Below are positions 2,003-9,453 of a stretch of DNA of 9,453 nt, piece by piece; within the stretch, counting starts at the first letter, position 1; each line of letters starts with the position of its first letter. A program made the translations under genes and the position numbers. The notes under the pieces were generated by a model. It had not been told where the DNA came from. It worked only from the letters and a program-made list of their open reading frames with translations, and did no database searches. The DNA comes from an uncultured Pseudorhodoferax sp. (lineage in GTDB: Bacteria; Pseudomonadota; Gammaproteobacteria; Burkholderiales; Burkholderiaceae): the NCBI GenBank assembly GCA_913776795.1, contig CAJYRH010000574.1:1-9453 (forward strand), read 5' to 3'.

Positions 2003-2845
2003 ATGTGCGATCTGAACGACCAGGAAGAGCTCCGCAAGTACACCCGCCGCGATTTCGGCGCCTGGGCCGCGTCGGCCGGCCTGCTGACCGTGCTGCCCGG
2101 CGTGGCCAACGCGGTGGCCGTCGCCGAACGCGACGTGGTCATTGCCACGCCGGACGGCAGCTGCGATGCCTACTTCGTCGCCCCCACCGCGGGTGCTGCG
2201 CCGGCCGTGCTGGTATGGCCCGACGTCTTTGGCCTGCGCCCTGCCTTTCGGCAGATGGGAAAGCGCCTGGCGGAGTCGGGCTACAGCGTGCTCGTCGTCA
2301 ACCCCTTCTACCGCCAGAAGAAGGCGCCCACCGCGCCGCAGGGCGGCCAGACGCCGATCGCCGAAGTGATGCCGCTGATGCAGGCCCTGACGCCGGCCAT
2401 GCACCTGGCCGACGGCAAGGCCTTCGTGGCCTGGCTCGACGCCCAGGCCGAGGTCGACAAGGCGCGCAAGATGGGCACCACCGGCTACTGCATGGGCGGG
2501 CCGATCGCGGTGCGCACGGCCACCGTGGCACCGGGCCGCGTGGGCGCGGTCGGCAGCTTCCATGGCGCCGCCATGGTGACGCCGGCGCCAGACAGCCCGC
2601 ACCGCCTGGTGGGCCAGACGAAGGCGCACTACCTGATCGCGGTGGCCGAGAACGACGACACCAAGGACCCCGAGGCCAAGGCCACGCTGCGTGCGGCGCT
2701 GGAGAGCGCCAAGCTGCCGGCTGAGGTGGAGGTGTACCCGGCGGCGCACGGTTGGTGCCCGCCTGACACGCGGGTTTACGATGCCGCCCAGTCCGAACGT
2801 GCCTGGACGCGCCTGCTGGCGACCTTCAGCAAGGCGCTGGTCTGA
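2003..2845 (+). CDS. Dienelactone hydrolase family protein with Tat signal peptide
   Basis: The product is 280 residues, alpha/beta-hydrolase fold. The catalytic Cys-Asp-His triad of the dienelactone hydrolase family can be placed: Cys163 in GTTGYCMGG, Asp218 or Asp219 in AVAENDDTKD, and His249 in PAAHGWC. The N-terminus has a twin-arginine motif, TRRDFGAW (Arg15-Arg16), followed by a hydrophobic stretch and a likely signal-peptidase site near GVANA (residues 33-37), so export through Tat to the periplasm is likely. The start at 2003 is set by a strong ribosome site, GGAGG at 1988-1992, ten bases upstream; the earlier in-frame ATG at 1937 lies upstream of that site and is not used. Family members hydrolyse dienelactone or other small esters and lactones; the true substrate here is not known. 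The classical cytosolic ClcD/TcbE enzymes are shorter and lack this leader. It stands alone on the plus strand between a LysR gene and infA. Confidence 0.9.
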   Translation: MCDLNDQEELRKYTRRDFGAWAASAGLLTVLPGVANAVAVAERDVVIATPDGSCDAYFVAPTAGAAPAVLVWPDVFGLRPAFRQMGKRLAESGYSVLVVNPFYRQKKAPTAPQGGQTPIAEVMPLMQALTPAMHLADGKAFVAWLDAQAEVDKARKMGTTGYCMGGPIAVRTATVAPGRVGAVGSFHGAAMVTPAPDSPHRLVGQTKAHYLIAVAENDDTKDPEAKATLRAALESAKLPAEVEVYPAAHGWCPPDTRVYDAAQSERAWTRLLATFSKALV

Positions 2846-2891
2846 ACCTGCGTGCGCGCGCACCTGCGCGCCGCACAGGGGAGGTGGCCGC

Positions 2892-3155
2892 ATGCCCGTG
2901 CCGTCGACCATGCGCCGCCGGGCCGGTGCGTCCTGCGCAGCCTCGTCGCGGGTGTCGTGGCGTTCGCCAAGGTCTGCGGACACGCTCGCCGTCGCCTGGG
3001 ACGACGGCGAAGCCCCCGCACGACCGCACGAGGAGTCGGTGCCGGCCGCGCTGCATGGGCACGCAACCCGCATGCGCGCAGCGCTGCAACCGGCCTGGGC
3101 ACCGCGTACAACGCCTGTGTCGGCAGCGCCACAGTTTTCGTGCGCCATCCGTTAG
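2892..3155 (+). CDS. Small hypothetical ORF (87 aa), doubtful
   Basis: An ATG at 2892 is preceded by a near-perfect ribosome site, GGGGAGGT (2878-2885), with six bases of spacing, and opens an 87-residue frame ending in TAG. The predicted protein starts [15 protein letters not shown], is Arg/Ala/Ser-rich and has a more acidic middle ([15 protein letters not shown]). No family is recognised, there is no signal peptide or membrane helix, and third positions are less uniformly G/C than in neighbouring genes. In DNA this GC-rich, open frames of this length arise by chance, so the ribosome site is the only positive evidence. It ends 155 bases before infA. Confidence 0.25.
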
Positions 3156-3310: not shown

Positions 3311-3553
3311 ATGGCCAAGGAAGACCTGATCGAAATGAACGGCGTGGTCGAGGAAGTGCTGCCCGACTCGCGTTACCGCGTCACGCTGGAGAACGGCCAC
3401 AGCCTCGTGGCCTACAGCGCCGGCAAGATGCGCAAGCACCACATCCGCATCCTGGCGGGTGACCGCGTGACGCTGGAACTGTCGCCCTACGACCTGAGCA
3501 AGGGCCGCATCAAGTTCCGCCACCTCGAGTCGCGCGGGCCCGGCCCGCGCTGA
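3311..3553 (+). CDS. infA: Translation initiation factor IF-1
   Basis: This 80-residue protein is a clear IF-1: a single S1/OB-fold domain with [51 protein letters not shown] and [19 protein letters not shown]-1 binds the A site of the 30S subunit with IF-2 and IF-3 during initiation. The start at 3311 gives the conserved N-terminus; the open frame upstream (to 2852) is a chance extension. A weak GAAAG ribosome site (3300-3304) lies six bases upstream. The C-terminal extension ([11 protein letters not shown]) exceeds the 72-residue standard form. Genes flanking it are not ribosomal proteins, so this is not the copy found in the spc/alpha ribosomal operon region. From what I recall of beta-proteobacteria, many carry a second IF-1 with this [12 protein letters not shown] start, and this matches it. 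Confidence 0.95.
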
Positions 3554-3725: not shown

Positions 3726-4628
3726 ATGGACGTTCGGCAGTTGCGCTATTTCGTTGCGATCGCGGAGAGCCTGAGTTTTCGGCGCGCCGCCGACGAACTG
3801 CACATCGCACAACCTGCGTTGAGCCGGCAGATCCGGCAACTGGAGGAGCAGCTCGGCGCCCGGCTTTTGGAGCGCGACAAGCGCTCGGTCGCATTGACCG
3901 CCGCGGGCCAGGCGGTGCTGGAGCATTCCCGCACCCTGCTGGCGCAGATGCAGGGCCTGCCGGCCATCGCGCAGCGGGCCGCCTCGGGCGAGACCGGGCG
4001 GATCCGCGTCGGCTTCATCAGCCTGGTGGCGTACGAGTTCCTGCCCGCCTTGGTGCGCGAGTTCCGCAGCCGCCTGCCCCAGGTGGACGTGGTGATGCAC
4101 GAATTCCCCGTCATGCACCAGTACGAGCCGCTGATGCAGGACCGCTTCGACGTGGCCATCCTGCGGCCGCTGCAGCCCGATCCGCTGATCGCCACCCAGG
4201 TCATCGACCGGGCTCGCTTCGTCGTGGCATTGCCCAGGAGCCATCCGCTGTGCCGGCAGGAGTCGCTGTCGGTGGCCGACCTGTGCAGCGAGGAGTTCAT
4301 CTCACTGCCGCGGACGAACGGGCCGAGCTTCCAGGCCCAGATCGTCGGCTTCTGCCGCGATGCCGGCTTCTGCCCCACGGTGATGCGCGAAGTCGGCGAC
4401 TCGCAGGCCATGATGGGTATGGTGGGCGCCGGCATGGGCGTGGCCATCGTGCCCGAGGTGGTGCGGCACCTGAAGACCGACGGGGTCGAGTACCGGCATC
4501 TGTCTGACCTGCCGCACCGGGCCGACATCGTGGTGGCCTGGAAGACAGCGGAGTCCAACCCCCTGGTCCACCAGTTCGTGCGCGCCGCGCAGCGTGCCTT
4601 TCCTCTGGCGGACACCGTTCCTCTCTGA
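3726..4628 (+). CDS. LysR-family transcriptional regulator (BenM/CbnR-like), regulator of the ABC importer cluster
   Basis: The product is 300 residues. The N-terminus MDVRQLRYFVAIAESLSFRRAADELHIAQPALSRQIRQLE is a classic LysR winged helix-turn-helix (about residues 1-60), closest in style to BenM/CatM/CbnR regulators of aromatic catabolism, ending in LLERDKRSVALTAAG. The effector-binding domain begins near residue 91 (GRIRVGFISLVAYEFLPALV) and contains VGDSQAMMGMVGAGMGVAIVPEVV around 219-242. The start gives the standard N-terminus; the upstream ribosome site is weak. It is followed, after 151 bases and on the same strand, by the importer genes, so it most likely controls them, perhaps in response to the imported compound. 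This co-directional layout is less usual than the divergent one. The 172-bp gap before it shows no clear promoter. Confidence 0.94.
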   Translation: MDVRQLRYFVAIAESLSFRRAADELHIAQPALSRQIRQLEEQLGARLLERDKRSVALTAAGQAVLEHSRTLLAQMQGLPAIAQRAASGETGRIRVGFISLVAYEFLPALVREFRSRLPQVDVVMHEFPVMHQYEPLMQDRFDVAILRPLQPDPLIATQVIDRARFVVALPRSHPLCRQESLSVADLCSEEFISLPRTNGPSFQAQIVGFCRDAGFCPTVMREVGDSQAMMGMVGAGMGVAIVPEVVRHLKTDGVEYRHLSDLPHRADIVVAWKTAESNPLVHQFVRAAQRAFPLADTVPL

Positions 4629-4658
4629 TTCCCGCACTGATCCCGCGCTGATGCCGCG
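4625..4658. repeat. Three tandem 11-12 bp repeats of CTGATnCCGCR type
   Basis: CTGATTCCCGCA (4625-4636), CTGATCCCGCG (4637-4647) and CTGATGCCGCG (4648-4658) lie head to tail. The first overlaps the stop codon of the LysR gene. The third forms the left arm of a hairpin, GATGCC (4650-4655) with GGCATC (4661-4666) around a 5-base loop. Spacing close to one helical turn would suit a protein-binding array, but chance in GC-rich DNA is possible. Confidence 0.45.
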
Positions 4659-4690
4659 CCGGCATCACAGCCTGCCCCAAACGGTATTGG

Positions 4691-4705
4691 CCTGCCCGGC
4701 GCAGG
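4691..4705. promoter_or_regulatory. Short dyad upstream of importer genes (candidate LysR site)
   Basis: CCTGC (4691-4695), five bases, GCAGG (4701-4705) form a perfect short inverted repeat about 80 bases before the substrate-binding protein start. LysR regulators bind interrupted dyads near this distance from their target promoters. TTGGCC (4687-4692) and CACACT (4711-4716), 18 bases apart, are a poor promoter match overlapping the dyad. Assignment rests on position only. Confidence 0.25.
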
Positions 4706-4779
4706 TTTCGCACACTGCAGACAGACAGCGCTGCAGCTGTTCCCCGCCCCCGATGTCCCCATCCCGCAGGAGAGTTCCG

Positions 4780-5850
4780 ATGATCATGCACCCCACCAGC
4801 CCGCTTGTTCCGATCGGCCGCCGCCAGTGGCTCGCCGGGATCGCCGCGACGGCCGCCGCCAGCGTCTGGCCGGACGCCCCGGCGTTCGCGCAGGCGGCGA
4901 AGTTCGGCGCGGCCGACTGCGGCATCGCCAGCATCGATCCGCTCTATTCGATGGTCTACGTCGGCGCCAAGCAGCGCTACTTCAACGACGCCGGCCTGGA
5001 CCTCAAGGCAATGAACGCGCAGAGCGGGCCGCGCGCCAAGCAGATGCTGGCGGCCGGGCAGATCTTCGCCGCGGTCTCCGGCGTGAACGACCCGGTGTCT
5101 CTGACCCTCGCCGGCAAGCAGGCAGTGCTGGTGGCGGGCTTCGACACGCGCATCCCGTTCGCCAACATCCTCATCAGCAAGAAGCTCTACGACAGCGGCG
5201 TCAAGGACATAAAGGCCCTGGCCGGCCGCTCCATCGGCATCACCCAGCCGCAGTCGGCCACCTGGCTGATGGCGGTGTACCTGGCCGACAAGGCCGGCAT
5301 CAAGGACCAGCTGAAGATCCGGCCGCTGGGCGACTTCGCCACCATGCTGGGCGCGGTGAAGAGCGGGTCGGTCGATTGCTGCACGGCGACCTACTCGATG
5401 CTGAACAAGGCGCAGGCCGAAGGCTGGGGCGTGCCGCTGTTCGACGTGACCGACAACGCCGGCTGGAACGCGTCCTTCGGCGGCGACATCCCGGGCGTGG
5501 GCATCTACGTGATGCAGGAGACCATCGACAAGCGGCCCGATGCCGTACAGGCCCTGGTCACCGGGGTGGCGCGGGCCACCGACTACCTGCATCAGACCAG
5601 CGCCACCGAGGTGGTGTCGCTGATCGGTGCGGAGTACCTCAACGGCTACGCGCCGCAGCTGTCGATCGACTCCGTCACCACTTTCAAGAAGACCTGGAGC
5701 ACGGACAACCTGATCACCCCCCAGCACTACGCGCGGCTGATGGAGGTGATGGGCAGCGGCCGCCAGATCGCCAACGAGGACATGGGCAAGGTGCCCTACG
5801 AGAAGATGGTCGACATGCGCTTCGTGAAGAAGGCGCGGGGCCTCGCATGA
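4780..5850 (+). CDS. ABC importer substrate-binding protein, NMT1/THI5-like (SsuA/TauA superfamily)
   Basis: The product is 356 residues. An N-terminal signal is evident: GRRQWLAGIAATAAASVW (Arg14-Arg15 and a hydrophobic core) ends at APAFA, with cleavage likely after Ala37. The paired arginines followed by Q-W-L resemble a Tat signal, but Sec export is also possible. The mature part follows the NMT1/THI5-like plan of aliphatic sulfonate, taurine and nitrate binding proteins: IASIDPLYSMVYVGAKQRYF near residues 49-68, an AAGQIFAAVSGVND segment (91-104), LAGRSIGITQPQSAT (147-161) and GAVKSGSVDCCTAT (191-204). It should capture a small organic solute in the periplasm and pass it to the permease. 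The ATG at 4780 has an AGGAGA ribosome site (4768-4773) six bases away; a second ATG at 4786 is possible. Its stop overlaps the ATPase start (ATGA at 5847-5850), so the two are translationally coupled. Specificity cannot be deduced; phthalate-type transporters use the same family. Confidence 0.9.
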   Translation: MIMHPTSPLVPIGRRQWLAGIAATAAASVWPDAPAFAQAAKFGAADCGIASIDPLYSMVYVGAKQRYFNDAGLDLKAMNAQSGPRAKQMLAAGQIFAAVSGVNDPVSLTLAGKQAVLVAGFDTRIPFANILISKKLYDSGVKDIKALAGRSIGITQPQSATWLMAVYLADKAGIKDQLKIRPLGDFATMLGAVKSGSVDCCTATYSMLNKAQAEGWGVPLFDVTDNAGWNASFGGDIPGVGIYVMQETIDKRPDAVQALVTGVARATDYLHQTSATEVVSLIGAEYLNGYAPQLSIDSVTTFKKTWSTDNLITPQHYARLMEVMGSGRQIANEDMGKVPYEKMVDMRFVKKARGLA

Positions 5851-6650
5851 TCGACATCTCCCACATCAGCAAGGCCTACCTCAGCGCGACGCGCGAGACC
5901 TGGGCCATCGGCGATGTCAGCCTGCAGGTGCGCAGGGGCGAGTTCGTCTGCATCGTGGGGCCGAGCGGCTGCGGCAAGAGCACGCTGCTGAACATGGTCG
6001 GAAGCTTCATGGCGCCCAGCGCGGGACAGATCTCCATCGACCACATCCCGGTGGTGCCGGGCACCATCCCGAACCGACTGGGCTACATCTTCCAGAAGGA
6101 CACGGTGCTGCCCTGGTACACGGTGGGGCGCAACATCGGCCTGGGCCTGAAGTTCCGCGGCTACTCCGAGCTGCAGATCGCCGAGAAGGTCAAGCGCCTG
6201 CTGGCGCTGGCCAACCTGTCGGGCAGCGAGGACATGTTGCCGCACCAGCTTTCGGGCGGCATGCGCCAGCGTGTCGCGCTGCTGATGACCCTGGCCTGCG
6301 AACCCGACGTGCTGCTGCTGGACGAGCCATTCGGCGCGCTCGACAGCAACACCAAGATGACGCTGCACCACGAACTGCTGACGATCTGGCAGAAGCTGGG
6401 CCAGACGGTGGTGATGGTGACGCACGACCTGGACGAAGCCGTCACGCTGGCCGACCGGGTGATCGTGCTGTCGGCGCCGCCGAGCCGCGTGGTGCTGGAC
6501 CACCACGTGGACCTGCCACGCCCGCGCAACGTGTTCGCGCTGCGCGACTCCGAGGATTTCGGCCGCAACGTGCGCGCCATCTGGAGCGTGCTGGGACGCG
6601 AGTTCCAGGCCGCGCAAAACACCGCCAAGGAGGCTTCCGATGTCGCCTGA
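5847..6650 (+). CDS. ABC importer ATPase (SsuB/TauB/NrtD family)
   Basis: This 267-residue protein has all nucleotide-binding motifs: Walker A GPSGCGKST (38-46), Q-loop Gln83 in YIFQKDTVLPW, ABC signature LSGGMRQR (135-142), Walker B VLLLDEP (155-161) with catalytic Glu160, D-loop GALD (163-166) and the switch His193 in VMVTHDLDEAV. The QKDTVLPW segment and VTHDLDEA are typical of the taurine/sulfonate/nitrate importer group. It acts at the cytoplasmic membrane face and powers uptake by the neighbouring permease. The start overlaps the preceding stop as ATGA, which sets the start; the open frame upstream is out-of-frame shadow of the binding protein. Its last 11 bases overlap the permease start. 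No key residue is missing. Confidence 0.95.
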   Translation: MIDISHISKAYLSATRETWAIGDVSLQVRRGEFVCIVGPSGCGKSTLLNMVGSFMAPSAGQISIDHIPVVPGTIPNRLGYIFQKDTVLPWYTVGRNIGLGLKFRGYSELQIAEKVKRLLALANLSGSEDMLPHQLSGGMRQRVALLMTLACEPDVLLLDEPFGALDSNTKMTLHHELLTIWQKLGQTVVMVTHDLDEAVTLADRVIVLSAPPSRVVLDHHVDLPRPRNVFALRDSEDFGRNVRAIWSVLGREFQAAQNTAKEASDVA

Positions 6651-7542
6651 ACCCACCGCCGCCGCCGCGCTGCACGGCGCCGAGCGCGCCGCCGCCACGC
6701 AACGCATCCAGGAGTTCGCCGCGGCGTCGCGGCGGGCGGCACGGCGCGAGGCGACCATCGTACTGGCCTGGCAGCTGGCCCTTTTCGCCAGCTTCATCGG
6801 CCTGTGGGAAGGGCTCACGCGCCTGCCCTGGTTCGTGGCCAACACCTTCCTCGATCCGTTCTTCGTGAGCCGGCCCTCGATGGTGCTGGAGCGGATCTAC
6901 GCCTGGACCTTCGGCGCCCAGGCCGGCTTCATCTGGCCGCACCTGGCCTCCACCGTCACGGCCACGCTGCTCGGGCTGGTGGTCTCGGTCGTCACCGGCT
7001 TCGTGTGCGGCCTGGGGCTGTCGCAAAGTCCGCGGCTGGCGCGCGTGCTGGGGCCGTTCATCACGGGCGCCAACTCGCTGCCGCGCATCGCCTTCGTGCC
7101 GCTCATCACCATGATCTTTGGCCTGGGCCTGCTGTCCAAGGTGGTCACGGCCTGGTTCATCGTCTTCTTCCTGGTGTTCTTCAACACCTTCAAGGGCGGC
7201 CAGAGCATCGAGCCCCACCTGATCAACTTCTGCCGCACGCTGGGCGCTTCGCGCACCCACCTGCTGTGGAGCGTGCGGGTGCCCTACGTGATGGGCTGGA
7301 TGTTCGCGGCGCTGCCGAACGCGGTGGCCTTCTCGCTGATCGGTGTGGTGATCTCGTAGTTCGTCGGCTCGGACCAGGGCATGGGCTACTTGATCATCAC
7401 CTCGCTGTCGACGCTGAACGCGAGCGACATGTTCGCCACGATCACGCTGCTGTCCATCCTGGGCATCGTGCTGGTCTCGGCCATCCGCCACGTCGAGCGC
7501 CGGCTGATGCGCTGGACACCCGAATTCCGCGATGCCGCCTGA
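6640..7542 (+). pseudogene. ABC importer permease (SsuC/TauC family) interrupted by an in-frame TAG
   Basis: The start ATG at 6640 has a perfect AAGGAGG ribosome site (6627-6633, six bases away). The reading frame encodes 239 residues, then TAG at 7357-7359, then 60 more sense codons to a TGA at 7540-7542. Before the stop the protein shows a helix at about 38-59, one at 104-127, helices across 137-181, the permease coupling loop (INFCRTLGASRTHLLWSVRVPYV, about 195-217) and a further helix ending LIGVVIS. After the stop the same frame reads FVGSDQGMGYLIITSLS and a last hydrophobic helix (MFATITLLSILGIVLVSAI), exactly as in intact relatives, where VISEFVGS is usual. One G-to-T change (GAG to TAG) would explain it. 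The product as written lacks its final helix and is probably inactive. Sequencing error or stop-codon suppression remain possible. The substrate-binding protein, ATPase and cupin around it are intact. Confidence 0.88.
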
Positions 7543-7584
7543 ACCGCGCACCGCCCACCACCCCTTCACACGCAGGAGCAACCC

Positions 7585-7983
7585 ATGACCACCACGCTGC
7601 AAAAGCCCCGCGAGACCGAGCCGACCATCGGTGGCTCGATCTACATCAAGCCCGACACCATGGAGTGGAAGCCTACGCGCTTCGAGAAGGTGTCGATCAA
7701 GGTCCTCTACGAGAACGCCGCGCAGGGCGAGATGACCTGCCTGCTGAAGCTGGAGCCGGGGGCCTTCATCCCGTTCCACAAGCACCCCGAGCTGGAACAG
7801 ACCTACGTGCTGAGCGGCTCGGTGGAGAACCACGACGGCGTGGCCCTGCAGGGTGACTACATCTGGCGCAAGCCCGGCTCGTTCCACGACAACCGCTCGG
7901 ACACCGGCGCCCTGGTGCTTGCGGTGTACCGCAAGCCGAACATCTTCTTCCACGACACCACCGGCGAGACGGCCGGCTTCTAG
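7585..7983 (+). CDS. Small single-domain cupin protein, last gene of the importer cluster
   Basis: This 132-residue protein carries the first cupin motif precisely: Gly59, His65, His67, Glu71 and Gly78 in GAFIPFHKHPELEQTYVLSG. The second motif is near-canonical in GDYIWRKPGSFHDN, with His101 as the fourth likely metal ligand. It resembles the ChrR-like/acetylacetone-dioxygenase-like small cupins that bind Fe, Mn or Zn. It has no signal peptide and is presumably cytoplasmic. The start is fixed by AGGAG at 7574-7578, six bases upstream. It lies 42 bases after the permease frame and is probably in the same transcript. A dioxygenase, isomerase or ligand-sensing role towards the imported compound is plausible but inferred; no reaction can be named. 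The interrupted permease upstream could reduce its expression by transcriptional polarity. Confidence 0.88.
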   Translation: MTTTLQKPRETEPTIGGSIYIKPDTMEWKPTRFEKVSIKVLYENAAQGEMTCLLKLEPGAFIPFHKHPELEQTYVLSGSVENHDGVALQGDYIWRKPGSFHDNRSDTGALVLAVYRKPNIFFHDTTGETAGF

Positions 7984-8202: not shown

Positions 8203-9453
8203 TCAGCGCTTGCTGCGCAGCGTGCGGCTCAGCAGCACCACGGGCAGCAGCCCGACCAGCACCAGCGCCAACGAGGGCAGGGCGGCCTCGCCCAGCCGCT
8301 CGTCGCGGGCCAGTTGGTAGGCCACCACGGCCAGCGTGTCGGTGTTGAACGGGCGCAGCACCATGGTGGCGGGCAGCTCCTTCATGACGTCCACGAACAC
8401 CAGCAGCGCCGCCGCCGCGGCCGAGCGCTGCAACAGCGGCCAGTGCACGCGCGCCATGAGCCCCAGGCCCCCCGTGCCCAGCATGCGGGCCGAGTCGTCG
8501 AAGCTCTGCGGGATGCGCGCGTAGCCGCTCTGCATGGACTGCAGCGCCACCGCGCAGAAGCGCACCAGGTAGGCCCAGACGATGCCCAGCGCCGTCGCCG
8601 TGACCCAGTAGGCCGCGCCCAGCTGCGGCGCGGCCTGCTGCAGCCAGCCAACCGGCAGCAGCAGCCCGACCACAATCACCGCGCCCGGCACCGCATAGCC
8701 CAGGCCCACCAGCTGCACGGCGACGCGCTGCACGGTGCGCGGCGTGCAGCGCACGCAGAAGGCCAGGAACAGTGCCAGTGCCACGGCGAAGGCCGAGGTC
8801 AGCGCGCCCAGCCAGATGCTGTTCGTGGCCCACTGCACGAAGCGGTCCCAGGGCAACACCGACCAGTCGGCCGCCAGCGGCCGCAGCATGAAGGCCACCG
8901 GCAGCACGAAGCCCATCAGCACCGGGAAGACGCACAGCGCCTGCGCCAGCAGCTGGCGCCCGCCGGTCAGCACCAGCGGCCGGCCGTCGTGGCTGCCGGC
9001 GCGCCCGCGCGTGCTGGCGAAGCGCATGCGCGCTTGCGCGCGCTGCTCGTGTGCCAGCAGCACGACGAAGAAGACCAGCAGCATGGTCGCCAGCTGGGCC
9101 GCGGCGATGCGGTTGTCCATGGCCAGCCAGGCCTTGTAGATGCCGGCCGTGAAGGTCTGGATGCCGAAGTAGCTGGACACGCCGAAATCGGCCAGCGTCT
9201 CCATCAGCGCCAGCGCCGTGCCGGCCGCGATCGCCGGCCGCGCCATCGGGAGCGCCACCTCGCGCACGCGCCGGCCCAGCGGGGCGCCCAGCAGCCGCGC
9301 CGCTTCCATCAGGTGTGCTGCACGCTCGGCCAGCGCCGTGCGCGCCAGCAGGTAGACATAGGGGTACAGCGTGAAGGTGAACACCACGGCCGCGCCGCCC
9401 AGGCTGCGCACCTCGGGCAGCACGCGGCCGCGCAGGCCGAATGCCTCGCGCAG
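8203..9453 (-). CDS. Iron(III) ABC transporter permease, FbpB/SfuB-type two-domain (partial, N-terminus beyond right edge)
   Basis: The frame enters at the right edge (LREAFGLRG) and runs 416 residues to a TGA at 8203-8205. Two copies of the permease core are visible, as in the fused FbpB/SfuB permeases. The first has a coupling loop MEAARLLGAPLGRRVREVALPMARP (about 49-73) and DFGVSSYFGIQTFTAGIY (89-106). The second has DDSARMLGTGGLGLMARVHWPLL (319-341) followed by DVMKELPATMVLRPFNTDTLA (355-375), a signature of this family. Hydrophobic helices lie around 120-134, 168-190, 214-234, 246-267, 281-305, 345-356 and 391-408. It should move ferric iron (or a related cation) delivered by a periplasmic binding protein across the inner membrane. 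The GTG at 9423 is an internal Val, not a start, since the conserved frame continues upstream. The partner ATPase usually follows the permease but here the next gene is the convergent cupin, so ATPase and binding protein must lie elsewhere or beyond the right edge. Confidence 0.92.
   Translation of the reverse strand: MREAFGLRGRVLPEVRSLGGAAVVFTFTLYPYVYLLARTALAERAAHLMEAARLLGAPLGRRVREVALPMARPAIAAGTALALMETLADFGVSSYFGIQTFTAGIYKAWLAMDNRIAAAQLATMLLVFFVVLLAHEQRAQARMRFASTRGRAGSHDGRPLVLTGGRQLLAQALCVFPVLMGFVLPVAFMLRPLAADWSVLPWDRFVQWATNSIWLGALTSAFAVALALFLAFCVRCTPRTVQRVAVQLVGLGYAVPGAVIVVGLLLPVGWLQQAAPQLGAAYWVTATALGIVWAYLVRFCAVALQSMQSGYARIPQSFDDSARMLGTGGLGLMARVHWPLLQRSAAAAALLVFVDVMKELPATMVLRPFNTDTLAVVAYQLARDERLGEAALPSLALVLVGLLPVVLLSRTLRSKR

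Follow-up and report, generated by a model that had tools for sequence, protein, structure and literature searches.

A lone in-frame TAG in the permease gene of an ABC importer cluster from an uncultured Pseudorhodoferax sp., probably a recent nonsense substitution

The 9,453-base stretch of DNA analyzed here (the window), from an uncultured Pseudorhodoferax sp., carries a gene cluster in the order LysR-type regulator, substrate-binding protein, ATPase, permease, and cupin (Table 1). Searches with the permease found seven loci, of which six (L001-L006) were read at the DNA level and a seventh, a 26% match (L007), was left out. The order seen at 3726-7983 of the window is shared by its three nearest named relatives, Variovorax MAG PMG_138 (L001), Variovorax sp. 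770b2 (L002), and Xenophilus sp. Marseille-Q4582 (L003). In the more distant L005 and L006, the cupin (2633-3001 and 2206-2556, respectively) precedes the binding-protein gene and does not follow the permease; it therefore stays linked to the importer through rearrangement. The stretch examined for L004 gave no cupin match.

The remaining genes of the cluster that were checked are free of internal stops, and the alignment of each to L001-L003 is unbroken. The open frame of the binding protein extends back to 4594, with 4780 taken as the probable start. The cluster has one permease gene of this kind; an ABC permease gene of another type occupies 8203-9453 on the opposite strand, runs toward the cupin, and remains open where the contig ends. 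Models of molybdate and phosphonate permeases match it, but all with scores under their cut-offs. The gene for IF-1 (infA) is located at 3311-3553, flanked by a dienelactone-hydrolase-like gene on one side and the LysR gene on the other (TIGR00008, 100.8 bits against a cut-off of 61.15).

Table 1. Coordinates of the importer cluster and of the features of its permease frame within the window.
Feature	Position	Strand	Basis
LysR-type regulator preceding the importer genes	3726..4628	+	67-75% identical in L001-L003
Substrate-binding protein, NMT1/THI5-like	4780..5850	+	PF09084; 66-75% identical in L001-L003
ABC ATPase of this importer, overlapping the permease start with its end	5847..6650	+	PF00005; 83-91% identical in L001-L003
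AAGGAGG, probable ribosome-binding site for the permease	6627..6633	+	Read by eye; six bases before the ATG
ABC permease, codons 1-239 and premature TAG	6640..7359	+	Pfam BPD_transp_1, PF00528
In-frame TAG, codon 240	7357..7359	+	Glu in 119/119 relatives (best 120 of 724 matches, own protein aside)
Remaining permease frame, 60 codons and terminal TGA	7360..7542	+	tblastn, 64-86% identity to six loci
Cupin (ChrR cupin-like), ending in TAG	7585..7983	+	PF12973

Read along the forward strand, the permease frame opens with an ATG, meets the TAG at codon 240, and then continues through 60 open codons to a TGA at 7540-7542, so that the interruption described in the initial annotation, with the same frame running on behind it, holds at every coordinate. 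The perfect ribosome site that it assigned to the permease has a likely counterpart in the AAGGAGG read by eye. Guanine and cytosine make up a fraction of 0.946 of third codon positions before the stop and 0.950 after it. Queried separately, the two parts of the frame match the six loci in register, codons 1-239 at 59-86% identity and codons 241-300 at 64-86%.

The permease belongs to the BPD_transp_1 family. Codons 1-239 score 51.5 bits against PF00528, for which the cut-off is 26.4, and cover profile positions 2-127 of 184, leaving the domain incomplete toward its C-terminal end; the 60-residue piece encoded after the stop has no Pfam match of its own at an E-value of 0.001. Likeness to the NitT/TauT-type permeases (taurine, nitrate, and aliphatic sulfonate) is given by this same above-threshold PF00528 match and by the sequence matches to permeases of solved structure described below. 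The SsuC/TauC name used initially is, by sequence scores, a superfamily label only, because the NCBIfam equivalog models for TauC and SsuC (NF007545 and NF008470), scored on the permease frame with X at the stop, give 88.9 bits against a cut-off of 342 and 59.9 against 347. TauC is the nearest NCBIfam model, yet the score is far under its cut-off. As a statement of superfamily likeness the name can be kept, and as an equivalog assignment it cannot.

Position 240 is occupied by glutamate throughout the close relatives. A protein search scored 7999 candidates and returned 724 matches, of which the best 120 were listed; one of these (P0012) is the 239-residue product of the window itself, leaving 119 relatives in the alignment. 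All 119 of these relatives from the best 120 of 724 matches have Glu at column 240, and all extend 58-60 residues past it, so none of them normally ends at this residue. At the DNA level, the codon is GAG in five of the six loci and GAA in the other. The expectation of Glu at the site of the stop is thereby borne out in proteins and genes alike, and no stop occurs at column 240 in any relative examined (the 119 proteins from the best 120 of 724 matches and the six loci); the window frame closes prematurely where the relatives stay open. The closest among the matches listed, P0002 and P0003, are each 300 residues long and 97% and 94% identical, respectively. Relative to P0002, the window frame has seven residue differences ahead of codon 240, one in that codon, and one beyond it. 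The permeases of L001-L003 share the same 300-residue frame, with 82-86% identity over codons 1-239, and differ from the window in having a Glu codon at 240 and no internal stop.

At strongly conserved columns, the frame is otherwise kept. Among the 119 relatives (best 120 of 724 matches), 108 columns are at least 95% conserved, and the window departs from them at column 240 only. Every strongly conserved column before the stop is kept, as are all 21 that follow it, and the TAG is the sole residue private to the window permease in this comparison. Codons 241-300 are best read as real coding sequence rather than a chance open frame, because they match the six loci and keep all 21 of these columns, in line with the permease-like content first noticed past the stop.

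The segment beyond the stop is predicted to contain the last helices of the permease. In a predicted model of P0002, residue 240 ends a helix spanning 205-241, and a further long helix spans 261-289; the model itself is weak, with a mean pLDDT of 67.7, a pTM of 0.53, and 44 residues under 50. Permeases of solved structure were matched by sequence, NrtB (8w9m) over query residues 50-278 and CmpB (9u9z) over 90-286. Their alignments, and that of OpuA (7ahc), extend beyond codon 240 and end at query residue 278 or 286. Read by eye, the two alignments displayed place Glu at 240 in CmpB and not in OpuA, and at the level of these sequences Glu at this position is not universal across the wider permease class. 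On the model, the stop should remove the last predicted helices of the permease, and uptake by this copy is therefore probably lost, a conclusion drawn from the conserved segment that goes with them.

Several explanations of the TAG have to be weighed against a recent nonsense substitution. The codon could be read as an amino acid, through a suppressor tRNA or a reassigned code, or be passed by programmed read-through, giving the full 300-residue permease. The retention of all 21 strongly conserved columns in the 60 codons after the stop is what such decoding would predict, but a recent stop explains this downstream conservation equally well. TAG is also an ordinary gene end in this DNA: the cupin terminates in TAG at the same residue after which its counterparts in L001-L003 use TGA, the LysR gene at 1009-1908 likewise ends in TAG, and the permease itself normally ends in TAG in L001 and L003. 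The permease TAG is followed by T, and PMC5289835 reports that U after the stop reduces read-through in E. coli and yeast; in that paper, the comparative signal is mainly for UAA, the correlation is not significant for genes ending in UAG or UGA, and the UAG-U measurement cited comes from yeast. The absence of a stop at column 240 from the relatives compared above also speaks against recoding, and no tRNA gene was found in the 9,453-base window, the only part of the genome covered. Special decoding of the permease TAG is thus unlikely, because the adjoining cupin ends in TAG where its relatives use TGA and because a T follows the permease stop; nothing found points to it, and we give recoding or read-through a very small chance. 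Smaller still is the chance that an amber suppressor tRNA encoded outside the window allows a low level of full-length permease, in which case uptake would be tuned down rather than lost. About equally improbable is a functional short permease of 239 residues, acting alone or together with a separately started C-terminal piece. The part of the frame before the stop does keep all of its strongly conserved columns, but every one of the 119 relatives (best 120 of 724 matches) runs on for 58-60 residues, the missing piece holds a predicted long helix and 21 strongly conserved columns, and by eye there is no well-spaced ribosome site before an in-frame ATG after the stop.

A more serious rival is an error in the assembly consensus, arising from low coverage, a damaged base, or a mixture of strains, with the gene intact in the cell. 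The window is apparently one single contig, as the entry for P0012 gives one contig with a longest length of 9453, and the TAG is the one residue unseen in the 119 relatives (best 120 of 724 matches), while all other strongly conserved columns are kept. Against an error there is no positive evidence, just the lack of further irregularities: the other cluster genes checked show no internal stop or broken alignment, and the permease has no second oddity. A lone lesion without other decay is the picture expected either from a very recent nonsense substitution or from one wrong consensus base. Nor does the chance of creating a stop tell them apart, as 59 of the 2700 possible single changes in the permease frame (~2%) do so, which bears in the same way on error and on mutation. 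An error has perhaps one chance in three, and we infer, with a probability of about 0.6, that the cell does carry this base and that the permease gene has suffered a lone recent nonsense substitution. This weighting of a real allele against an error is a judgement rather than a measurement. Among the three readings offered at the outset, recent loss and base-call error both fit the single lesion, the conserved columns kept, and the intact 97% identical relative, while suppression or read-through finds no support. Whether the stop is fresh or an error, the explanation is ordinary.

With a recent nonsense substitution as the preferred reading, a single change would have hit the permease of a LysR, binding-protein, ATPase, permease, and cupin cluster from a Variovorax/Xenophilus-like bacterium. 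Ribosomes would halt at codon 240, leaving a product 61 residues short of the 300-residue form at its end and without the final long helix of the prediction. An importer built on this truncated permease would probably stop working, and the gene would count as a nascent pseudogene, or else as an allele present in some members of the population. Nascent pseudogenes produced by one nonsense mutation are a known general kind in bacteria. The window permease, a candidate member, resembles them in its single premature stop with all else kept. If the base is real, the locus adds one more example of a natural population in which a single mutation has cost a nutrient importer, the rest of the cluster being intact. 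If it is an error, it is a reminder to check lone in-frame stops on unplaced contigs against the reads before giving them a biological reading.

Substitution rates on the two sides of the stop reflect long-term constraint and cannot date the stop, because divergence within the pairs compared greatly exceeds that between the window and P0002. By the NG86 method, dN/dS for codons 41-239 and 241-299 is 0.08 versus 0.30 with L001, 0.14 versus 0.11 with L002, and 0.22 versus 0.19 with L003. The higher downstream ratio with L001 would lie in the direction of decay, but it comes from 20 changed codons, and neither L002 nor L003 shows it.

Searched with the permease, viral contigs yielded a single pattern match but no relative. 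Among plasmids matched by DNA, coverage of the cluster reached 80% in none of the 13 matching records and was 7% at best; by protein, the best place was below 60% identity in all 1048 records. Genome searches with the permease frame carrying X at the stop returned no orthologue with an internal stop among the matches listed. Close orthologues at E ≤ 1e-90 appeared in 2 of 399 genomes sampled from the family of G002, a search that scored mostly five candidates per genome in the rows listed. They also appeared in 2 of 101 genomes of the genus of G002 and in 1 of 15 genomes of the genus of G003. Within the scope of these searches, close orthologues look rare in the genus and family of G002, a pattern that patchy spread or frequent loss would fit.
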